A DNA stretch of 24,680 nucleotides, taken from IMG/VR virus record IMGVR_UViG_3300046714_000167, positions 1 through 24,680 of that record; one strand, written 5' to 3'. Positions 1,294 to 19,660 of this stretch are shown one piece after another. Within the stretch, counting starts at the first letter, position 1. Every line of letters starts with the position of its first letter. The notes beneath the pieces were generated by a model. That model was not told the origin of the DNA and did not search any database. It saw only the letters and a program-made list of their open reading frames with translations. A program made the position numbers and the translations under genes. Origin of the DNA: a virus.

Positions 1294-1575
1294 GGCATGG
1301 CGAGGCGGGGCTTGGCGAGGCGGGGCCGGGCTGGGCGCGGCTGGGCGAGGCAAAGCGCGGCGGGGCACGGCCAGGCTCGGCATGGCGAGGCAAGGCAAGG
1401 CCTGGCTTGGCTCGGCCCTGCGCGGCCAGTCGGGGCGAGACCAGGCGCGGCCAGGCGTGGCGGGGCACGGCGCGGCACGGCAAGGCAGGGCAAGGCTAGG
1501 CTGGGCTGGGCCCGGCGTGACTAGGCTAGGCTGGGCTTGGCGGGGCAGGACAAGGCACGGCGAGGCTAGGCTAGG
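1294..1575 (+). repeat. GGCNN pentanucleotide array 1 (56 units)
   Basis: A perfectly phased run of 5-base units GGCNN fills this intergenic stretch: 56 units plus a terminal GG, without a single insertion or deletion. By hand tally 50 of 56 units have an exact GGC; six carry one substitution in it (AGC, TGC, GTC and three GAC). All 16 dinucleotides occur at NN, so neighbouring units are not copies of each other as in an ordinary microsatellite. It starts 4 bases after the upstream stop and ends 40 bases before the next ATG. The tail AATTTTTAACC follows it. Both strands stay largely open for translation because the pattern rarely makes stops, but the resulting Gly/Ala/Arg-rich peptides are a by-product of the repeat, not genes. 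Confidence 0.97.
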
Positions 1576-1615
1576 AATTTTTAACCGAGGACTACAACCA
1601 TGAGGGAGAAGCGAA

Positions 1616-2269
1616 ATGTTAGACAAGCCGAAACGAGAAAAAGCAGGCGGCGAAGATCACGCAAACAGTGTGCCACCTGTCAGAATTGCCAGCATTCACG
1701 ACCTCATCACAAAGCAGATTACCCTCCAGGGCCTCACGGATGTGATGTTCGACCGCTACCCTGGGGACAACAACACCAAGTTGGAGGCTCATCAAAAACT
1801 GTACCTGGCACCTGGCGGTTCCAAAGTCATTGGTCTCCCGGCGTTAAATATCATGTCCTTTTTGTCGGCCCACAACACCAATTCCGCACCGAAACGCCTA
1901 CGTGACAAGCGCAAGTACAAGGACCTCGCCAACGCAATGCTGTCATTCGTCAGCATCCGGCAGGCCTTTATCCCGTTCATGCGCGACGGCAAGCCGATCG
2001 TGTTCGGCAAGTTCGAGGGCGATCACGATCCCCTTAGCGGCTGTTATATCCATTACTCGGTCGCGCGCCTCGACAAGGGAATACCAAACCCAAAGGTGCG
2101 GCCTGTTATTCCCCTTGAATGGTATCTCGAATTCACCATGGACATCTTCCCCAACCGCGAGATCAAAGAGCAGGACGTTCTCAACTTGGTCGAAGAGGGC
2201 GGCCGCGCGATCGGCATAGGGACCTTTAGGGGGGTCTTTGGAAAGTTCCTCGTGGCCGGCTGGGAGTGA
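1616..2269 (+). CDS. Conserved-looking phage protein of the recombination block, function unknown
   Basis: A 217-aa protein. The ATG at 1616 has a good AGGGAG Shine-Dalgarno about 7 bases upstream; an out-of-frame ATG at 1600 opens only a shadow frame. The central region (MRDGKPIVFGKFEGDHDPLSG and a following VARLDKG) leads to a C terminus with RPVIPLEWYLEFTMDIFP and then EEGGRAIGIGTFRGVFGKF. This end resembles a widespread phage protein type, found near exonuclease and single-strand-binding genes, that ends in a G-x-GxxRxxxGxF pattern; I recall the pattern, not a named function. It sits between GGCNN arrays 1 and 2. A role in DNA recombination or annealing is plausible from position only. 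Confidence 0.75.
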   Translation: MLDKPKREKAGGEDHANSVPPVRIASIHDLITKQITLQGLTDVMFDRYPGDNNTKLEAHQKLYLAPGGSKVIGLPALNIMSFLSAHNTNSAPKRLRDKRKYKDLANAMLSFVSIRQAFIPFMRDGKPIVFGKFEGDHDPLSGCYIHYSVARLDKGIPNPKVRPVIPLEWYLEFTMDIFPNREIKEQDVLNLVEEGGRAIGIGTFRGVFGKFLVAGWE

Positions 2270-2285
2270 GTTTTACCTTTTTCGC

Positions 2286-2627
2286 GGCTGGGCACGGCAT
2301 GGCCCGGCGAGGCCGGGCCGGGCGCGGCCTGGCGCGGCGAGGCAAGGCCCGGCGCGGCAGGGCGCGGACAGGCATGGCCCGGCAGGGCGAGGCAAGGCAA
2401 GGCGAGGCAAGGCAGGGCGCGGCTCGGTGGGGCCCGGCCGGTCTGGGCGGGGCTGGGCGCGGTCTGGCGCGGCAAGGCAAGGCGCGGTGAGGCGCGGCGT
2501 AGCGCGGCGCGGCGCGGTTGGGCCGGGCGCGGTCAGGCACGGCGGAGCACGGCCGGGCGAGGCTGGGCGAGACTTGGTGAGGCGCGGTCGGGCTCGGCGT
2601 GGCGCGGCGGGGCGGGGCAAGGCGAGG
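2286..2627 (+). repeat. GGCNN pentanucleotide array 2 (68 units)
   Basis: The longest array: 68 phased GGCNN units plus terminal GG, no indel. By hand tally 56 units keep GGC; the 12 deviants are mostly GGT (7), with GGA, GTC, GAC and two AGC. Fifteen of 16 dinucleotides occur at NN (TA absent; GC and GA commonest). It begins 16 bases after the upstream stop, following a short T-rich stretch, and is followed directly by TTTTAACAATG. The last unit and GG create GCGAGG, a Shine-Dalgarno-like sequence 8 bases before ATG 2636. The array fills nearly all of the 406-base gap between genes; nothing else is seen in it. Confidence 0.97.
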
Positions 2628-2635
2628 TTTTAACA

Positions 2636-2692
2636 ATGACAAACAGCAAACCCAAAACCAGGAAAGCAAAACCCAATGGCCCTGATCGCTGA
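2636..2692 (+). CDS. Possible 18-aa leader peptide before the exonuclease
   Basis: A tiny frame encodes MTNSKPKTRKAKPNGPDR, lysine-rich and ending inside the exonuclease gene (17-base overlap). Its ATG lies exactly 8 bases after the GAGG formed by the end of array 2, good Shine-Dalgarno spacing. Translation of it would carry ribosomes across the exonuclease start at 2676, so it could couple array state to exonuclease expression. It is very short, and the exonuclease has its own AGGAAAG, so this may be chance. Confidence 0.3.
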   Translation: MTNSKPKTRKAKPNGPDR

Positions 2693-3767
2693 CACGCTGT
2701 CCCGCTACGCCGCCACCGTGCTCAAGACTTTCGCCCACGATCGCACCGAGACCGTCGGCGCTTCGGAAATAGGGCTGTGCGCGCGCAAGACCTTCTACGA
2801 GAAGAACGCCGTCGACCCGCAGATGGTGACCGAGCGCGACCCCGAGCACGTCGACACCTGGGGCACGCGGCTGCGCGGCACCCTGTTCGAAGACAAGTTC
2901 TGGCTGCCGGCGCTGCGCAAGCGTTTCGGCAAGCGGTTGCTGTTCGCTGGCAAACAGCAAACCAGCTTCCGCTACGAATTCTTGTCGGCGACGCCCGACG
3001 GCGTCGTCGTCGACCTGACCGAGAAGGAACTCGCCGAGCTGGGATTGCTCGGCGAGGCCGACGACTGCGTCGTCGTCGAATGTAAAACTATCGACCCGCG
3101 CGCGACGCTGACAGAAGCGAAGGCGTCGAACATCTTTCAGTGTCACGTGCAGATGGGCCTGCTGCGCATGAACACCAAGTATCAACCGAGCCACGCCGTG
3201 TTGAGCTACACCGACGCGAGCGACTGGAGCGTCGTCACCGAGTTCGTCATCAAATACGACGAGCGCATCTTTGCAGCGGCGGTGGTACGCGCCCGCAACA
3301 TCATGACGGCGCAGGCCGGCCACGAGCTCGAGCCCGAGGGCTTCCTGCGCGGCGGCAAGGAATGCCGCTACTGCCCCTACACCAAGGCCTGCGGCATCGA
3401 TCGGAGGCGCTTGCCGTTCCAAGAAGCGGGCCCGGTCGATCCGCAGTTCAAGGCCGAGATCAGCGACATGGCGCACGAGTATCGCGCCATCGAAGGCAGC
3501 CGCGACCGCGCCGACGAAGACCTCAAACGCATGCAGGAGAAGATCAAGACGCGGCTGCGCGATCGCGGTGTCCGCAAAATTCCCGGCGTTATCACTTGGT
3601 CCGAAGTGAGGGGGAGGGAAACTTACGACAACAAAGCAATACAAGCGGCAGCACTCGCCGCCGGGATTGATTTAAGTCCATTTCGGGAGTATGGCGAGCC
3701 ATCCGACCGCCTCTTGATCGCGATCGGCAAACAGCAGAACGACAAACCAGAAGGACAAGACCGATGA
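2676..3767 (+). CDS. Cas4/RecB-like PD-(D/E)XK exonuclease with predicted Fe-S cluster
   Basis: A 363-aa nuclease. The active-site motifs are visible in order: TPDG with D108, then VVVECK with E135 and K137, then QCHVQMGL with Q155 and Q159. Four cysteines match the iron-sulfur arrangement of Cas4/AddB-type nucleases: C35 (EIGLCARKTFY) and the cluster C230-x2-C233-x5-C239 (ECRYCPYTKACG). Such enzymes resect DNA ends for recombination, usually 5' to 3' in Cas4-like members. The C-terminal 100 residues form a charged helical region. The ATG at 2676 has AGGAAAG 9 bases upstream. It overlaps the next gene as ATGA, so the two are probably made together, like exonuclease and annealing or binding-protein pairs of other phages. 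Assignment is strong; the presence of a bound cluster is inferred. Confidence 0.88.
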   Translation: MALIADTLSRYAATVLKTFAHDRTETVGASEIGLCARKTFYEKNAVDPQMVTERDPEHVDTWGTRLRGTLFEDKFWLPALRKRFGKRLLFAGKQQTSFRYEFLSATPDGVVVDLTEKELAELGLLGEADDCVVVECKTIDPRATLTEAKASNIFQCHVQMGLLRMNTKYQPSHAVLSYTDASDWSVVTEFVIKYDERIFAAAVVRARNIMTAQAGHELEPEGFLRGGKECRYCPYTKACGIDRRRLPFQEAGPVDPQFKAEISDMAHEYRAIEGSRDRADEDLKRMQEKIKTRLRDRGVRKIPGVITWSEVRGRETYDNKAIQAAALAAGIDLSPFREYGEPSDRLLIAIGKQQNDKPEGQDR

Positions 3768-4609
3768 ACAAGCTCGTCGAAGCCAGCCAAGCTAAAAACC
3801 TCCCCGCCACCCCCGACGATCGCGGCGATCCGTTCGCCGCCCACGCGCAAGCCAACCGCGCAACGAACATCGTCGGGCGGCTGCTGAAATACTCCAAGGG
3901 CGACTACAGCGTCGGCGATACCCCGATCGCTTACGGGCATCGCTTCATTGCCCACATGGACTCGATCTTGAACGGCTGGATCAGGTGGGAAGACAACAAG
4001 CCACAACAGCACGTCATGGGCCGCATCAAAGACTTCTACCAGGTGCCGCCACGCTCTTCGCTCGGCTTCGACGACCAGGACCTCTGGGAGGTCGACGACC
4101 GCAACGAGCCGCGCGACCCCTGGCAGCGCAGCTACTACATCGTGCTCAAGAGCGCGCCCGGCTACGACATCCCGGTCGAGTTTTCGAACAACCCGGACGG
4201 CGAAGACGAAATCAGGGGCCACGACGACGGCACGCTGTTTACCTTCCCGGCCTCCAGCACCGGCTCGATCGGTGCCGTCAACCGCCTGATCGAACGCTAC
4301 GCCGAGCTGAAAGCCCAACACCCCGACGACTGGCCGATCATCGCGATCGGCTCGTCCTCGTATGCCCATAAGATTAAGTCCTACGGCAGGGTAAAATTTC
4401 CCGTCTTCACCGTCGTTGGCTGGGCTCCGAAAGGTGCCTTCGAAGGTGACGAGCCTGCCGTTGAGGAACCGAAGCAGGTTGAGGAGGCCAAGCCAGCACA
4501 GCGCAAGCAGGCGGCGGCCGCGCGCCAAGCAGCGCGCCAAGCGGCGCCGTCACCGGAACAACAACGACCCACCACAGCTAGTGTGCCACCGCGGAGCGGA
4601 CGCTTCTAG
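3764..4609 (+). CDS. Exonuclease-coupled phage protein, possible ssDNA-binding/recombination partner
   Basis: A 281-aa protein overlapping the exonuclease stop by ATGA. It resembles a phage family I recall from replication blocks: an N-terminal GRLLKYSKGDY, then HRFIAHMDSILNGWIRWEDN, a WEVDD/RDPWQRSYY stretch, the core GSIGAVNRLIERYAEL, and a conserved-looking KIKSYGRVKFPVFTVVGW followed by P-K. After about residue 225 the protein becomes a disordered Ala/Glu/Gln tail ending PPRSGRF. A folded core plus a long flexible tail is typical of single-strand-binding proteins, but the tip is not acidic as in bacterial SSB. The function is therefore inferred from the coupling. Array 3 begins 4 bases after its stop. 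Confidence 0.75.
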   Translation: MNKLVEASQAKNLPATPDDRGDPFAAHAQANRATNIVGRLLKYSKGDYSVGDTPIAYGHRFIAHMDSILNGWIRWEDNKPQQHVMGRIKDFYQVPPRSSLGFDDQDLWEVDDRNEPRDPWQRSYYIVLKSAPGYDIPVEFSNNPDGEDEIRGHDDGTLFTFPASSTGSIGAVNRLIERYAELKAQHPDDWPIIAIGSSSYAHKIKSYGRVKFPVFTVVGWAPKGAFEGDEPAVEEPKQVEEAKPAQRKQAAAARQAARQAAPSPEQQRPTTASVPPRSGRF

Positions 4610-4613
4610 TAGC

Positions 4614-4715
4614 GGCGAGGCCGGGCACGGCGCGGCATGGCAAGGCCAGGCCGGGCGTGGCTGGGCGGGGCGCGGCACGGCAAGGCTCGGCGGGGCAAGG
4701 CAAGGCAAGGCGAGG
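4614..4715 (+). repeat. GGCNN pentanucleotide array 3 (20 units, all perfect)
   Basis: Twenty consecutive GGCNN units plus terminal GG, with GGC intact in every unit and eleven different dinucleotides at NN (AA commonest). It starts 4 bases after the upstream stop and its final GAGG lies 8 bases before the TTG at 4724. The following bases AAATAATTTTGAC are A/T-rich, as after the other two arrays. It is the shortest and least diverged array. Its last units (GGCAA repeated, then GGCGAGG) resemble the end of array 2. Confidence 0.97.
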
Positions 4716-5274: not shown

Positions 5275-8073
5275 ATGACGTCTACCACTTCAATGGCTAT
5301 AAATCCAGACCCCTTCGCCGCGCTCGAATTTGTCAAAAGTCTATTCGCCGGCACCACCGAGATGGTGATCCTGACCTCCCTTCCAAATACGCGCGACGAC
5401 ACCGCCCAGAGCCCGCCCCGCAACCTGCCGACCCGCGACGGCGACGCCATTATCCCATTCGTGCGGCGCTGGGATCGCGTCGGCCGCGGGATGTTCTTCT
5501 GCGTCTCGACCCAGGCCGGTTCGCGCTCGAAAAAGAACGCCCGCGAGCTGCCGGCGCTGTGGGCGGACATCGATTTCAAGAACGTCGACGCCACCCCCGA
5601 GCAGGTCATCGCCGCAATCGCGACGCTGCGCTACCCGCCGACCTTCATCGTGTCGTCGGGCCACGGGCTCCACCTCTATTGGCGCCTCGCCGAATGGGTC
5701 GACGCCCAGGTGCACCAGGAGGCGGTCGAGCACGCCCTCCACCTGCTCGCCGACCACGTCGCCGGCGACCCCGCGGTCTGCGAAGTGGCCCGCCTGATGC
5801 GGCTGCCAGGCACGCATAACACCAAGGAAGAGCCAATTGCCGTCACGGCGGTCCAAACCAAGGGCGCGCCGGTTTACGCGTTCGGCGAGCTCCTGGCGTG
5901 GCTGGAGGGGCAGCCGGCGCCGATCCTGACCCGCAAGCCGTCCGCGGCGTCCGCGCCCGCTCAAACCGCTCAAACCGTTCAAACCGTTCAAACCGTTCAA
6001 ACCGACCCCTTCCGGGCCGCCGCCATGCAGTCCGGCTTCAAGCCGCCGATCGACGTCGAGACCCGCCTCGGCGAGATGACCTACCAGGGCACCGGCGAGA
6101 CCGGCATCCACCTCACGCAAATAGCCACCTCGGCGGCGCTCCTGCACCAGGGCGAGAGCATCGACGACATCGTCGAGACCCTGCTCGAAGCCACCCGCCG
6201 CGCCGCCGGGCCAGCCGGCGCCAAGTGGCACTGGGGTAGGGAGGAAAAGGCGCTACGCAACATGTGTAGGACTTGGCTCGAAAAGCACCCCGAGCTCGAG
6301 CCGGACGAGCCCGAGCGCATCGACCGCGCGCCGAGCCCGCTGTGGGCATCTATGGAGAAAACCGACCCCGAAACGGGGGAGGTGTTGGATGCCAAACCGC
6401 TTGACACCCCCAAAGCGGAACAAGCGGAACAGGCAAAACCGGCAGAACCGGCAAAACCCAAACGCGCCAAAAAGATCAAGCCGCACGTCGCAATCGCGGA
6501 AGCCTACCTCGCGGCCGGCGAGCCGATGATCGCAATCGAGGGCGGAGTCTGGTGCTACCACGACCGGCTGTGGCGGTTCGAGACCGGTGACGGGTGGCTC
6601 AATGCCGAGCTCGATCACGTGGCGCAGGAGCTCGGCTTGGTGTCCACCAGCCGCCTGATCAGCGAGGCCCGCAATTACCTACTGCGCCATAAAAAGGTCT
6701 GGCGCCGCCAGGCCCCCGACTTCGACCATCACGGCCAAATCCCGACCCGGTCAGGCCTGGTCGACCCCCTGACCGGAATGCTGATCCCGCCGGCGCCCGA
6801 GCACTACGTCACCTGGCGGATCGAGGCCGACTACGACCCGGTCGCCCCCTGCCCACTGTGGCGGCAGCTGCTGGCCGACGCCTTCCTCGACCACCCCGAT
6901 GCCGCCGCCTGCGTCCAGCTAATCCAGGAGCTGCTCGGCGCCGGCCTGATCGACCGCAAGGGCACCGAACGCTCGCGCGCGCTGGTACTGGTCGGCGACA
7001 GCAATTGCGGGAAAAGCAGCATCCTGGAGGTGTTGGCGGGGTTGTTCGGCCCCGACCACAATACCTCGACCTTCGACAAGATCGAGGGCACCCACGGCCT
7101 GGTCCCATTCGCCAAGCGGCAGCCGTGGCTGCTGCCGGAAGCGTTCGACGCCTCGAAGTGGCACTTGTCGTCGACCGTCAAACTGATTTTGAGGGGCGAG
7201 CCGTTCCAGATCAACATCAAGGGCGGCCCGATTATGACAGTGCGCGCGACGGCGCCGGCGTTCTGGGGGTCGAACGTCGCACCCCAGTTCAAGGAGGCCA
7301 CCAAGGCGGTGATCAACCGCCTGGCGATCGTCGAGTGCCGCCGCGTGTTCGATCCAGCGGTGCCGACCGGGGTGGCGGCGATCGCGCGCGCGCGCGGCTA
7401 CGACGAGCCGCAGCACCTCGTGCTGGCCACCGAAATGCCGGGGCTGCTGGCGTGGGCAGTCGAAGGCTTAAGGCGGCTGCTCAAGCGCGGCCACCTGGTG
7501 ATGCCGACAACCTCGGAGGAGGCCGGCCACCGGATCCGCCGCGACAGTAACCTGGTCGCTGGCTTCCTCGGCGAATGCGTCGACTTTGACCCGAACACGA
7601 TGGTGTCCTCGGCCGATTTCTGCGCGGCGTTCGCGGTCGCCTGGATCGAAGCAAAAGGCGAGGACCGCCGCTTGCCCTCGAACGACGCGATCACCAAGGC
7701 AATCCGCGCCTTCGGCGACGCCCGGATCGCGACCGGCGAGGAGCTCCGCGACGAGCGCCGCCGCTACTACGCCGGCGTCGGCCTCAATGCCGAGGGCTTG
7801 CGGCTGCACGGCAAGGCCCTCGAGCAAGATTTGTTCGCCTCCAAGACGCTGTCGACAACGCCGCCGGGCGAAACCGTCAATCGGGTTATCCCGGAGCGTT
7901 GGGACACCAAACAGATGGTCCAAGACATGCGAAAAGCTCACGACCTGACGCGTAAAATGTCGCGTGGCGGAAATGGAAATGGGCATGACGCGGCAGAGCC
8001 AGAAACCACTCCAGAAACCCGCGACAGGAGCGGCGTCAGGATCGGCGAAGTCCTTGATCCGACAGATGATTAG
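5275..8073 (+). CDS. Primase-helicase fusion (RepB-type primase + D5/SF3 helicase)
   Basis: A 932-aa protein with GGAGG 5 bases before ATG 5275. Residues about 20-215 look like an archaeo-eukaryotic/RepB-type primase: LWADIDFKN with D98 and D100 as metal ligands, SGHGLHLYWRL with H130/H133, and CEVARLMRLPGTHN near 180. A linker with AQT/VQT repeats (about 229-243) and a second Ala/Lys-rich linker near 380-400 follow. The C-terminal half is a D5/P4-type superfamily 3 helicase: Walker A GDSNCGKS at residues 574-581 (K580), a Walker B-like PWLLPEAFD near 620, and a sensor/Arg-finger stretch (FWGSNVAP, then NRLAIVECRRVF). It would unwind and prime the phage origin, as in P4 alpha-like proteins. 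Length fits two-domain members. It is probably a single-gene transcript: a terminator precedes it and a weaker one follows. Confidence 0.92.
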   Translation: MTSTTSMAINPDPFAALEFVKSLFAGTTEMVILTSLPNTRDDTAQSPPRNLPTRDGDAIIPFVRRWDRVGRGMFFCVSTQAGSRSKKNARELPALWADIDFKNVDATPEQVIAAIATLRYPPTFIVSSGHGLHLYWRLAEWVDAQVHQEAVEHALHLLADHVAGDPAVCEVARLMRLPGTHNTKEEPIAVTAVQTKGAPVYAFGELLAWLEGQPAPILTRKPSAASAPAQTAQTVQTVQTVQTDPFRAAAMQSGFKPPIDVETRLGEMTYQGTGETGIHLTQIATSAALLHQGESIDDIVETLLEATRRAAGPAGAKWHWGREEKALRNMCRTWLEKHPELEPDEPERIDRAPSPLWASMEKTDPETGEVLDAKPLDTPKAEQAEQAKPAEPAKPKRAKKIKPHVAIAEAYLAAGEPMIAIEGGVWCYHDRLWRFETGDGWLNAELDHVAQELGLVSTSRLISEARNYLLRHKKVWRRQAPDFDHHGQIPTRSGLVDPLTGMLIPPAPEHYVTWRIEADYDPVAPCPLWRQLLADAFLDHPDAAACVQLIQELLGAGLIDRKGTERSRALVLVGDSNCGKSSILEVLAGLFGPDHNTSTFDKIEGTHGLVPFAKRQPWLLPEAFDASKWHLSSTVKLILRGEPFQINIKGGPIMTVRATAPAFWGSNVAPQFKEATKAVINRLAIVECRRVFDPAVPTGVAAIARARGYDEPQHLVLATEMPGLLAWAVEGLRRLLKRGHLVMPTTSEEAGHRIRRDSNLVAGFLGECVDFDPNTMVSSADFCAAFAVAWIEAKGEDRRLPSNDAITKAIRAFGDARIATGEELRDERRRYYAGVGLNAEGLRLHGKALEQDLFASKTLSTTPPGETVNRVIPERWDTKQMVQDMRKAHDLTRKMSRGGNGNGHDAAEPETTPETRDRSGVRIGEVLDPTDD
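5959..6003 (+). repeat. Five tandem 9-base repeats in the primase linker
   Basis: Five copies of GYTCAAACC encode (A/V)QT repeated five times. The copies differ only at the second base (C in the first two, T in the last three), so expansion looks recent. The length is a multiple of three, so copy-number change keeps the frame and only alters linker length between the primase and helicase domains. Confidence 0.95.
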
Positions 8074-18785: not shown

Positions 18786-18956
18786 ATGGCCATGCCTGTA
18801 GTTACCGTTGCTGCGAATGGCCTCCCAGTGGTGGACGTGACGGCGGTTGCGCCGCGACAAGGTCTGCCGGTAACCGAGGCAGCTAACGGTAAAGGCCTCG
18901 CCGTGACCAAGGTGACCGGTGGCAAGCCTGGGATGGCGGTGGTTTACTCGCCATGA
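18786..18956 (+). CDS. Short repetitive beta-type protein
   Basis: A 56-aa protein with internal pseudo-repeats: VTVAANGLPVVDVTAVAP, QGLPVTEAANGKGLAVTKV, TGGKPGMAVVY, i.e. a G-L-P-V-x-[DE]-[AV] motif recurring about every 17 residues. Such short glycine/valine repeats occur in phage structural clusters. Ribosome site weak; its stop overlaps the oxygenase start as ATGA. Confidence 0.65.
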   Translation: MAMPVVTVAANGLPVVDVTAVAPRQGLPVTEAANGKGLAVTKVTGGKPGMAVVYSP

Positions 18957-19660
18957 GCGCGCTGGCCGAGGCCGATTACAAAGTCGATCCCGCAGACGTG
19001 CGAACCGATTGGCAGGTGCGTCAGTTGACGCCAGGCGCCTTTGTCGTCGACAACCTGCTCGGCGACGTCGAGCGCGCCGCCGTGCTTGCTTTCCTGGACG
19101 AGGGCGGCTGGAAGTTCGGCTGGAAGTCGGCCTCGAAGACCGACGTCTATTCGTTTTGGCACCGGCACTTTGCCGGCTACCGACGGGCCACCGGCGGGCC
19201 ATCGAGCAAGTATCCGTGTGCAGACGAGCTGCAGCGCGTCGCGCCATTCCTGTTTGAGCTCTGGCTCAAGCTGACGCCGTCGGTGTTCGATGGTCATACG
19301 CTGTTTCGCTGCTACGCCAACGCCACCAGCTACGGCAGCGACGGCACGATCCACACCGATACGAAGGACGTCAAGGGCTACACCTCGGTGTACTATCCGC
19401 ACGCGGAGTGGCAACCGAATTGGGCCGGCGAGACCGTGCTGTTCAATGACGAGAAGTCGGACATCGTTGCGTCGGTGTATCCACGACCAAACCGATTGCT
19501 GGTGTTCCGTGGCGACATCCCGCACGTTGCACGCGGGGTGTCGCGCATTTGCCCGGTGCTGCGGGTGACATTAATGTGGAAAACGCAGTATGATGACCCC
19601 TCAAAACAGGAGGGTGTCCATGAAGCCGAGGGACTACACAAACTACCACAGGGTATCTGA
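18953..19660 (+). CDS. 2OG-Fe(II) dioxygenase (prolyl-4-hydroxylase-like)
   Basis: A 235-aa protein of the 2-oxoglutarate/iron(II) oxygenase superfamily. The double-stranded beta-helix motifs are present: GTIHTDTKD with metal ligands H134 and D136, a following YTSVYYPHAEWQPNWAGETVL strand pair, RPNRLLVFRGDIPH with distal ligand H191, and VLRVTLMWK with R204 as the likely 2OG-binding Arg. It would hydroxylate a protein, nucleotide or lipid substrate; the substrate cannot be read from sequence. Start overlaps the upstream gene (ATGA). The last 24 residues after MWK are atypical and coincide with the leader and start of the next gene, an HNH endonuclease, suggesting the original C terminus was replaced. 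Confidence 0.85.
   Translation: MSALAEADYKVDPADVRTDWQVRQLTPGAFVVDNLLGDVERAAVLAFLDEGGWKFGWKSASKTDVYSFWHRHFAGYRRATGGPSSKYPCADELQRVAPFLFELWLKLTPSVFDGHTLFRCYANATSYGSDGTIHTDTKDVKGYTSVYYPHAEWQPNWAGETVLFNDEKSDIVASVYPRPNRLLVFRGDIPHVARGVSRICPVLRVTLMWKTQYDDPSKQEGVHEAEGLHKLPQGI

Follow-up and report, generated by a model that had tools for sequence, protein, structure and literature searches.

The window analysed here, the complete 24,680-bp IMG/VR virus record IMGVR_UViG_3300046714_000167, contains three arrays of a degenerate five-base repeat, GGCNN, and, between the first two of them, a gene for a 217-aa protein predicted to be a Cas7-like RAMP protein (vipr, positions 1616-2269, plus strand). The arrays and the gene are interpreted below as a phage-borne VIPR system, in which the arrays would encode guide RNAs (vrRNAs).

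The GGCNN arrays and the vipr gene

A phase scan of the window revealed exactly three runs on the plus strand and none on the minus strand. Arrays 1 (1294-1575, 56 units) and 2 (2286-2627, 68 units) are candidate vrRNA arrays, and array 3 (4614-4715, 20 perfect units) is a candidate vrRNA. The units themselves span 1294-1573, 2286-2625 and 4614-4713, and a closing GG extends each array to the end coordinate originally assigned to it. The last NN dinucleotides are GA-TA-TA in array 1, AA-GA in array 2 and AA-AA-AA-GA in array 3. The scan reproduced the counts of the original prediction: GGC is intact in 126 of 144 units (50/56, 56/68 and 20/20 in arrays 1 to 3), there is no indel, and each of the 18 deviant units carries a single substitution (GGT 7, GAC 4, AGC 3, GTC 2, TGC 1 and GGA 1). 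GGT accounts for 7 of these 18 units, which makes GGY the more accurate consensus. The NN positions had been described as saturated; all 16 dinucleotides do occur, but their use is not uniform, TA being about 2-fold under-represented and TG about 1.7-fold over-represented relative to independence. In 300 composition-matched Markov sequences, exact GGCNN runs did not exceed 4 units, compared with 20 in the window.

The arrays occupy gaps between genes and are oriented with transcription, and on the coding strand they begin 4, 16 and 4 bases past the upstream stop codon (arrays 1, 2 and 3, respectively), in agreement with the first description of the locus. The vipr gene is flanked on both sides: about 40 nt separate it from the end of array 1, and the 16 bases preceding array 2 are counted from its stop codon.

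The vipr product belongs to the phrog_4652 family, whose function is listed as unknown in PHROGs. Searches of Pfam, NCBIfam and PADLOC gave no useful match, and a tblastn search of the INPHARED phages gave none, the family being too divergent for tblastn. AlphaFold (AF2) modeling on the family alignment (predicted local distance difference test score, 93; predicted template modeling score, 0.83) gives a CRISPR Cas7-like RAMP fold. In a Foldseek comparison, all 50 of the PDB matches listed were CRISPR complexes or their subunits, mainly the type III Csm3, Csm5 and Cmr RAMPs and also type VII, with a best E-value of 2.9e-5, a probability of about 1.00 and sequence identities of 7-15%. Four residues, W169, G200, R205 and G209, are invariant in 71 divergent family members, and the C-terminal segment that holds the last three of them, GGRAIGIGTFRGVFGKF, looks like the glycine-rich loop (G-loop) of RAMP proteins.

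Linkage of arrays and protein, and membership in the VIPR family

The association between arrays and protein was examined from both sides. When viral contigs were scanned for runs of nine exact GGCNN units, at least 120 stretches were returned, and nearly all of the matches listed carry degenerate arrays. Among the viral loci listed, none uses both strands for its arrays, and 136 of 175 array zones are flanked left and right by genes on the same strand. When all proteins were clustered across 116 loci picked from the listed matches by DNA pattern only, the dominant family was that of the window protein at 1616-2269, found in 81 loci by BLAST and in 87 by hidden Markov model, while the runner-up family reached 17/116. 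The reverse search used five close relatives of the window Vipr as queries, without consulting the arrays. A same-strand GGY/NN array lay within 1.5 kb of the gene in 68 of the 80 viral loci fetched, usually a few bases past the stop codon or just ahead of the start, and opposite-strand arrays numbered three in all. The strand bias, the placement in gene gaps and a co-occurring gene, for which checks had been proposed, are all present, the last as one dominant protein family. The arrays recur in many phages and independent contigs, which rules out an assembly artefact and extends the form beyond the window.

The Vipr already described from Escherichia phage SUSP1 is a member of the same family. 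A profile built from the array-derived family matched the SUSP1 protein at 28474-29061 (minus strand) with an E-value of 2e-46, and GGY arrays lie up- and downstream of that gene, where vrRNAs have been mapped (PMC13142463). VIPR systems pair a phage RAMP protein, Vipr, with vrRNAs of alternating GGY and NN (PMC13142463; bioRxiv 2026.04.26.720920). The NN pairs are read on double-stranded DNA with one base skipped, and rival phages are repressed; targeting was demonstrated for two family members (PMC13142463). The window has the corresponding components, namely a small RAMP homologue of the Vipr family with a predicted RRM core and G-loop, and hypervariable-NN repeats (YNNGG, or GGY-NN) flanking its gene, with 126 GGC and 7 GGT among 144 units. 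Because sequence family, fold and array form agree, the locus is identified as a VIPR system. The original prediction held that no element of this form had been described in phages; the arrays in fact match the VIPR guide-RNA arrays reported in April/June 2026 (PMC13142463), and the window is a further VIPR member, its Vipr belonging to a clade separate from that of SUSP1.

By analogy with the published systems, the arrays would be transcribed together with the surrounding genes to give guide RNAs. Vipr subunits would line up along the RNA, probably with each repeat occupied by one subunit that grips GGY and leaves NN exposed for reading. Taken together, the NN pairs would define a DNA target with gaps, in which every NN is followed by one skipped base (NNx), and the guide-Vipr complex would shut down genes in rival phages or in other mobile elements. 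Under this model, GGC and its 5-nt period are conserved as the register in which the protein binds, and NN is free to change as the carrier of the message. Observed here are the arrays, the RAMP protein, the reciprocal linkage between the two, the family identity with SUSP1 Vipr and a conserved 3′ end; RNA binding, the one-nucleotide-skip code, DNA targeting and an anti-phage role would carry over from PMC13142463. We place the probability that the arrays and vipr form a phage-borne VIPR system, working in this way, at roughly nine in ten.

Compared with the characterised type II systems (SUSP1 and a Pseudomonas fulva prophage; PMC13142463), the window shares a RAMP protein of one sequence family and pentamer arrays that lie in gaps beside vipr, on the same strand, in a phage genome. 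It differs in the separate clade of its Vipr, in its 56, 68 and 20 units rather than 9-16, in a strong preference for GGC over GGT, and in the last three to four units, which are GGC(A/G)A, with no SUSP1-type structured tail; no constant accessory gene is seen either. Class 1 CRISPR-Cas systems, with their Cas7/Csm3 backbone on the crRNA, resemble it in the RAMP fold with a glycine-rich loop (Foldseek) and, presumably, in a periodic protein grip on the guide RNA. They differ in a 6-nt Cas7 footprint, against the 5-nt repeat unit and single 217-aa protein of the window. A CRISPR direct-repeat/spacer array with a cas operon was not found in the window, where the surrounding genes are those of phage recombination and replication.

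The arrays had originally been placed in a recombination operon. This setting is real, though variable: RecE-like nucleases, Erf or Sak4 annealing proteins, SSB, helicase and replication genes recur around Vipr, while the next most frequent neighbour family appears in 15 of about 80 clade loci and no constant accessory (vap) gene was seen. The recombination setting is a tendency and not a rule, and the protein and its arrays alone are constant across relatives; the arrays are tied to vipr and not to recombination as such. In the window, a RecE-like or Cas4-fold exonuclease gene associated with phage recombination (2676-3767, plus strand; phrog_434, 1.7e-23) lies between arrays 2 and 3, followed in the same operon by a gene for a 281-aa protein (3764-4609, plus strand; phrog_9528, labelled nucleotidyltransferase in PHROGs, 2.2e-12); neither is counted among the VIPR components here. 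A 171-aa open reading frame upstream of array 1 (774-1289) matches nothing in PHROG or Pfam and has a weak, probably chance, PADLOC CARF/HEPN match (E 0.0065); it is an accessory candidate by position only. Elsewhere, the window carries terminase, portal and head genes of phage type, the terminase being nearest to those of Rhizobium (60%) and Bradyrhizobium (58%) phages. The primase gene holds a near-perfect 9-bp tandem repeat, CCGTTCAAA, in 5.3 copies at 5957-6004, and an Endonuclease V-like gene (18953-19660; phrog_274, 1.6e-17) stands among the structural genes.

Array length and 3′ ends in the window's clade

In a maximum-likelihood tree, the window Vipr falls in a 23-row clade (support 100/99) with SUSP1 outside, and array form tracks the Vipr clade. 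The median array length is 12 units in SUSP1-like loci and 11 in a 27-member clade, whose blocks are offset from one another by a 4-nt phase step. In the window's clade the median is 19 units and the maximum 89; 15 of 55 arrays have at least 25 units, and there is no phase step. The position of array 2 is kept in relatives, and distal arrays like array 3 are also present in four other loci (L250, L319, L323 and L324).

The 3′ ends are a second distinguishing trait. The terminal units are fixed across 146 distinct arrays from close relatives, with NN being AA or GA in 81% at position -2, 76% at -3 and 48% at -4, and the 5′ units are free. The terminal GGC(A/G)A units are followed by GG and then by an A/T-rich stretch; no long tail is common to the arrays, and no Rfam match, hammerhead included, was obtained. 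It seems that the 3′ handle in this clade is made of the repeat units themselves, replacing the structured tail of SUSP1. Within long arrays, internal GGC(A/G)A pairs are weakly enriched (z = 2.1); at that level they are not claimed as guide boundaries. The 56- and 68-unit arrays are inferred to be processed into several guides, though they may instead yield overlapping staggered guides, a form mentioned in PMC13142463, or act whole. A tentative and rather doubtful proposal is that the long uninterrupted arrays of the window's clade and of the L013 clade described next represent a distinct VIPR architecture, either a single RNA-protein filament on a very long gapped target or several end-to-end guides delimited by GGC(A/G)A handles.

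Other array forms were encountered among the viral loci. A separate four-member Vipr clade (L013:6311-7010, L035, L110 and L009) has arrays of up to 140 units, with 15% GGT, after which a hairpin-like sequence recurs, GGGCCTTATTGC..AGGGCGGCTAA..ACCGCCTT. In L089, L122, L066, L116, L127, L014 and L032, a single 4-nt unit often links successive GGCNN blocks, each about 9-12 units long, so that the pattern repeats roughly every 49 nt; the last-unit NN is AG in 60% of the arrays of the 27-row Vipr clade. These linked blocks are possibly the staggered arrays with overlapping vrRNAs reported for other VIPR types (PMC13142463). The sister loci L298:5336-5560 and L299:1608-1807 share 32 identical NN units in their 3′ part and differ in their 5′ parts, as if guides were replaced at the 5′ end. 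NN duplications within an array occur in L290 (17 units apart) and L315 (9 units apart).

Target searches, alternative readings and significance

NN use in the arrays is closest to that of codon positions 1-2 of neighbouring phage genes, over any other frame or strand. The composition is suggestive of a wobble-skipping read-out of coding targets, with NN copied from contiguous dinucleotides; neighbour-dependent mutation could account for part of the same TA-low, TG-high bias.

Several results weigh against the VIPR interpretation. Six 9-unit array probes gave 0-2 exact matches each in IMG/VR, about the number expected by chance, and none was convincingly longer. Decoded peptides matched nothing in phages and plasmids, and searches of phage and plasmid records and of 274 bacterial genomes yielded no target, the order-level genome search around G001 having covered small genomes of an unlikely host group. 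A comparison of all arrays with about 5.7 Mb of target sequence (both strands counted) revealed no clear excess, whichever skip length was used. Moreover, 12 of the 80 Vipr relatives have no detected array, the window arrays lack the long structured tail, and at 20, 56 and 68 units they exceed the 9-16 repeats per vrRNA of the SUSP1 and P. fulva clades (PMC13142463). The last figure is rather a trait of the characterised clades than of all VIPRs, since the same report mentions staggered and overlapping arrays in other types. One candidate target, a 20/20 match of array 1 units 1-10 near the integrase start of L331, extending one unit past the probe, is not claimed, because each probe is expected to give about one match by chance and the skip base here does not coincide with the wobble position.

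TRAP binds RNA sites of the form (G,U)AG-NN, in which a conserved triplet recurs every 5 nt and is held by a repeated protein unit. The RAMP protein might similarly coat the arrays and control its own operon, through attenuation or mRNA stability, with no guiding to DNA. The position of the arrays 4-16 nt past stop codons within the operon, the lack of a target in the searches above and the reading by TRAP, too, of a triplet with 2-nt spacers favor such regulation. However, targeting has been shown for two members of the family (PMC13142463), hypervariable NN and a free 5′ end are not expected from plain coating, and the NN composition resembles codon positions 1-2. The fold and function of TRAP also differ, and its sites are few, whereas GGCNN arrays reach 89-140 units. 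Regulation of this kind is the best of the alternatives and still very improbable.

Still less probable is that the arrays encode a protein of pentapeptide G-x-A-(R/W/G)-x repeats. Stops arise in GGCNN only through NN = TA or through deviants, leaving long open frames such as 1286-1603, which overlaps the upstream stop as ATGA, and a single codon phase, that of every third unit, holds 9 of the 12 deviants of array 2 (p = 0.004 before correction). All GGC bases, however, are kept in the three codon phases, wobble included, and some frames hold stops. The three-unit periodicity of array 2 is taken as chance, the phase bias being absent from the other arrays (z 0.7).

Comparable runs do exist in GC-rich bacterial genomes, as another kind: in the same kind of scan, 109 of 120 fetched runs were near-perfect microsatellites with fewer than five different NN. 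Vipr was found beside 5 of the 11 degenerate runs and beside none of the 109 near-perfect ones (Fisher p = 2e-6). An ordinary microsatellite, that is, a GGC-rich pentamer grown by slippage and then decayed, is a reading already refuted by the reciprocal protein linkage. Near-perfect runs are common in such genomes, but the window keeps GGC with near-saturated NN and no indels, and across dozens of unrelated contigs the arrays keep to a single strand beside the same protein family. The initial view that selection, and not slippage, holds GGC at 5-base spacing is upheld.

It has been proposed that CRISPR arose from phage-borne VIPR and that VIPR is a new mode by which RNA addresses DNA. The present analysis provides an independent, sequence-only confirmation that the RAMP protein and the GGY/NN arrays form a constant pair, recovered from either side. 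It offers a search rule, at least nine exact GGCNN units with at least five different NN, and it adds to the family a well-populated, GGC-dominated clade (80 viral loci fetched) in which arrays often greatly exceed the characterised ones in length.

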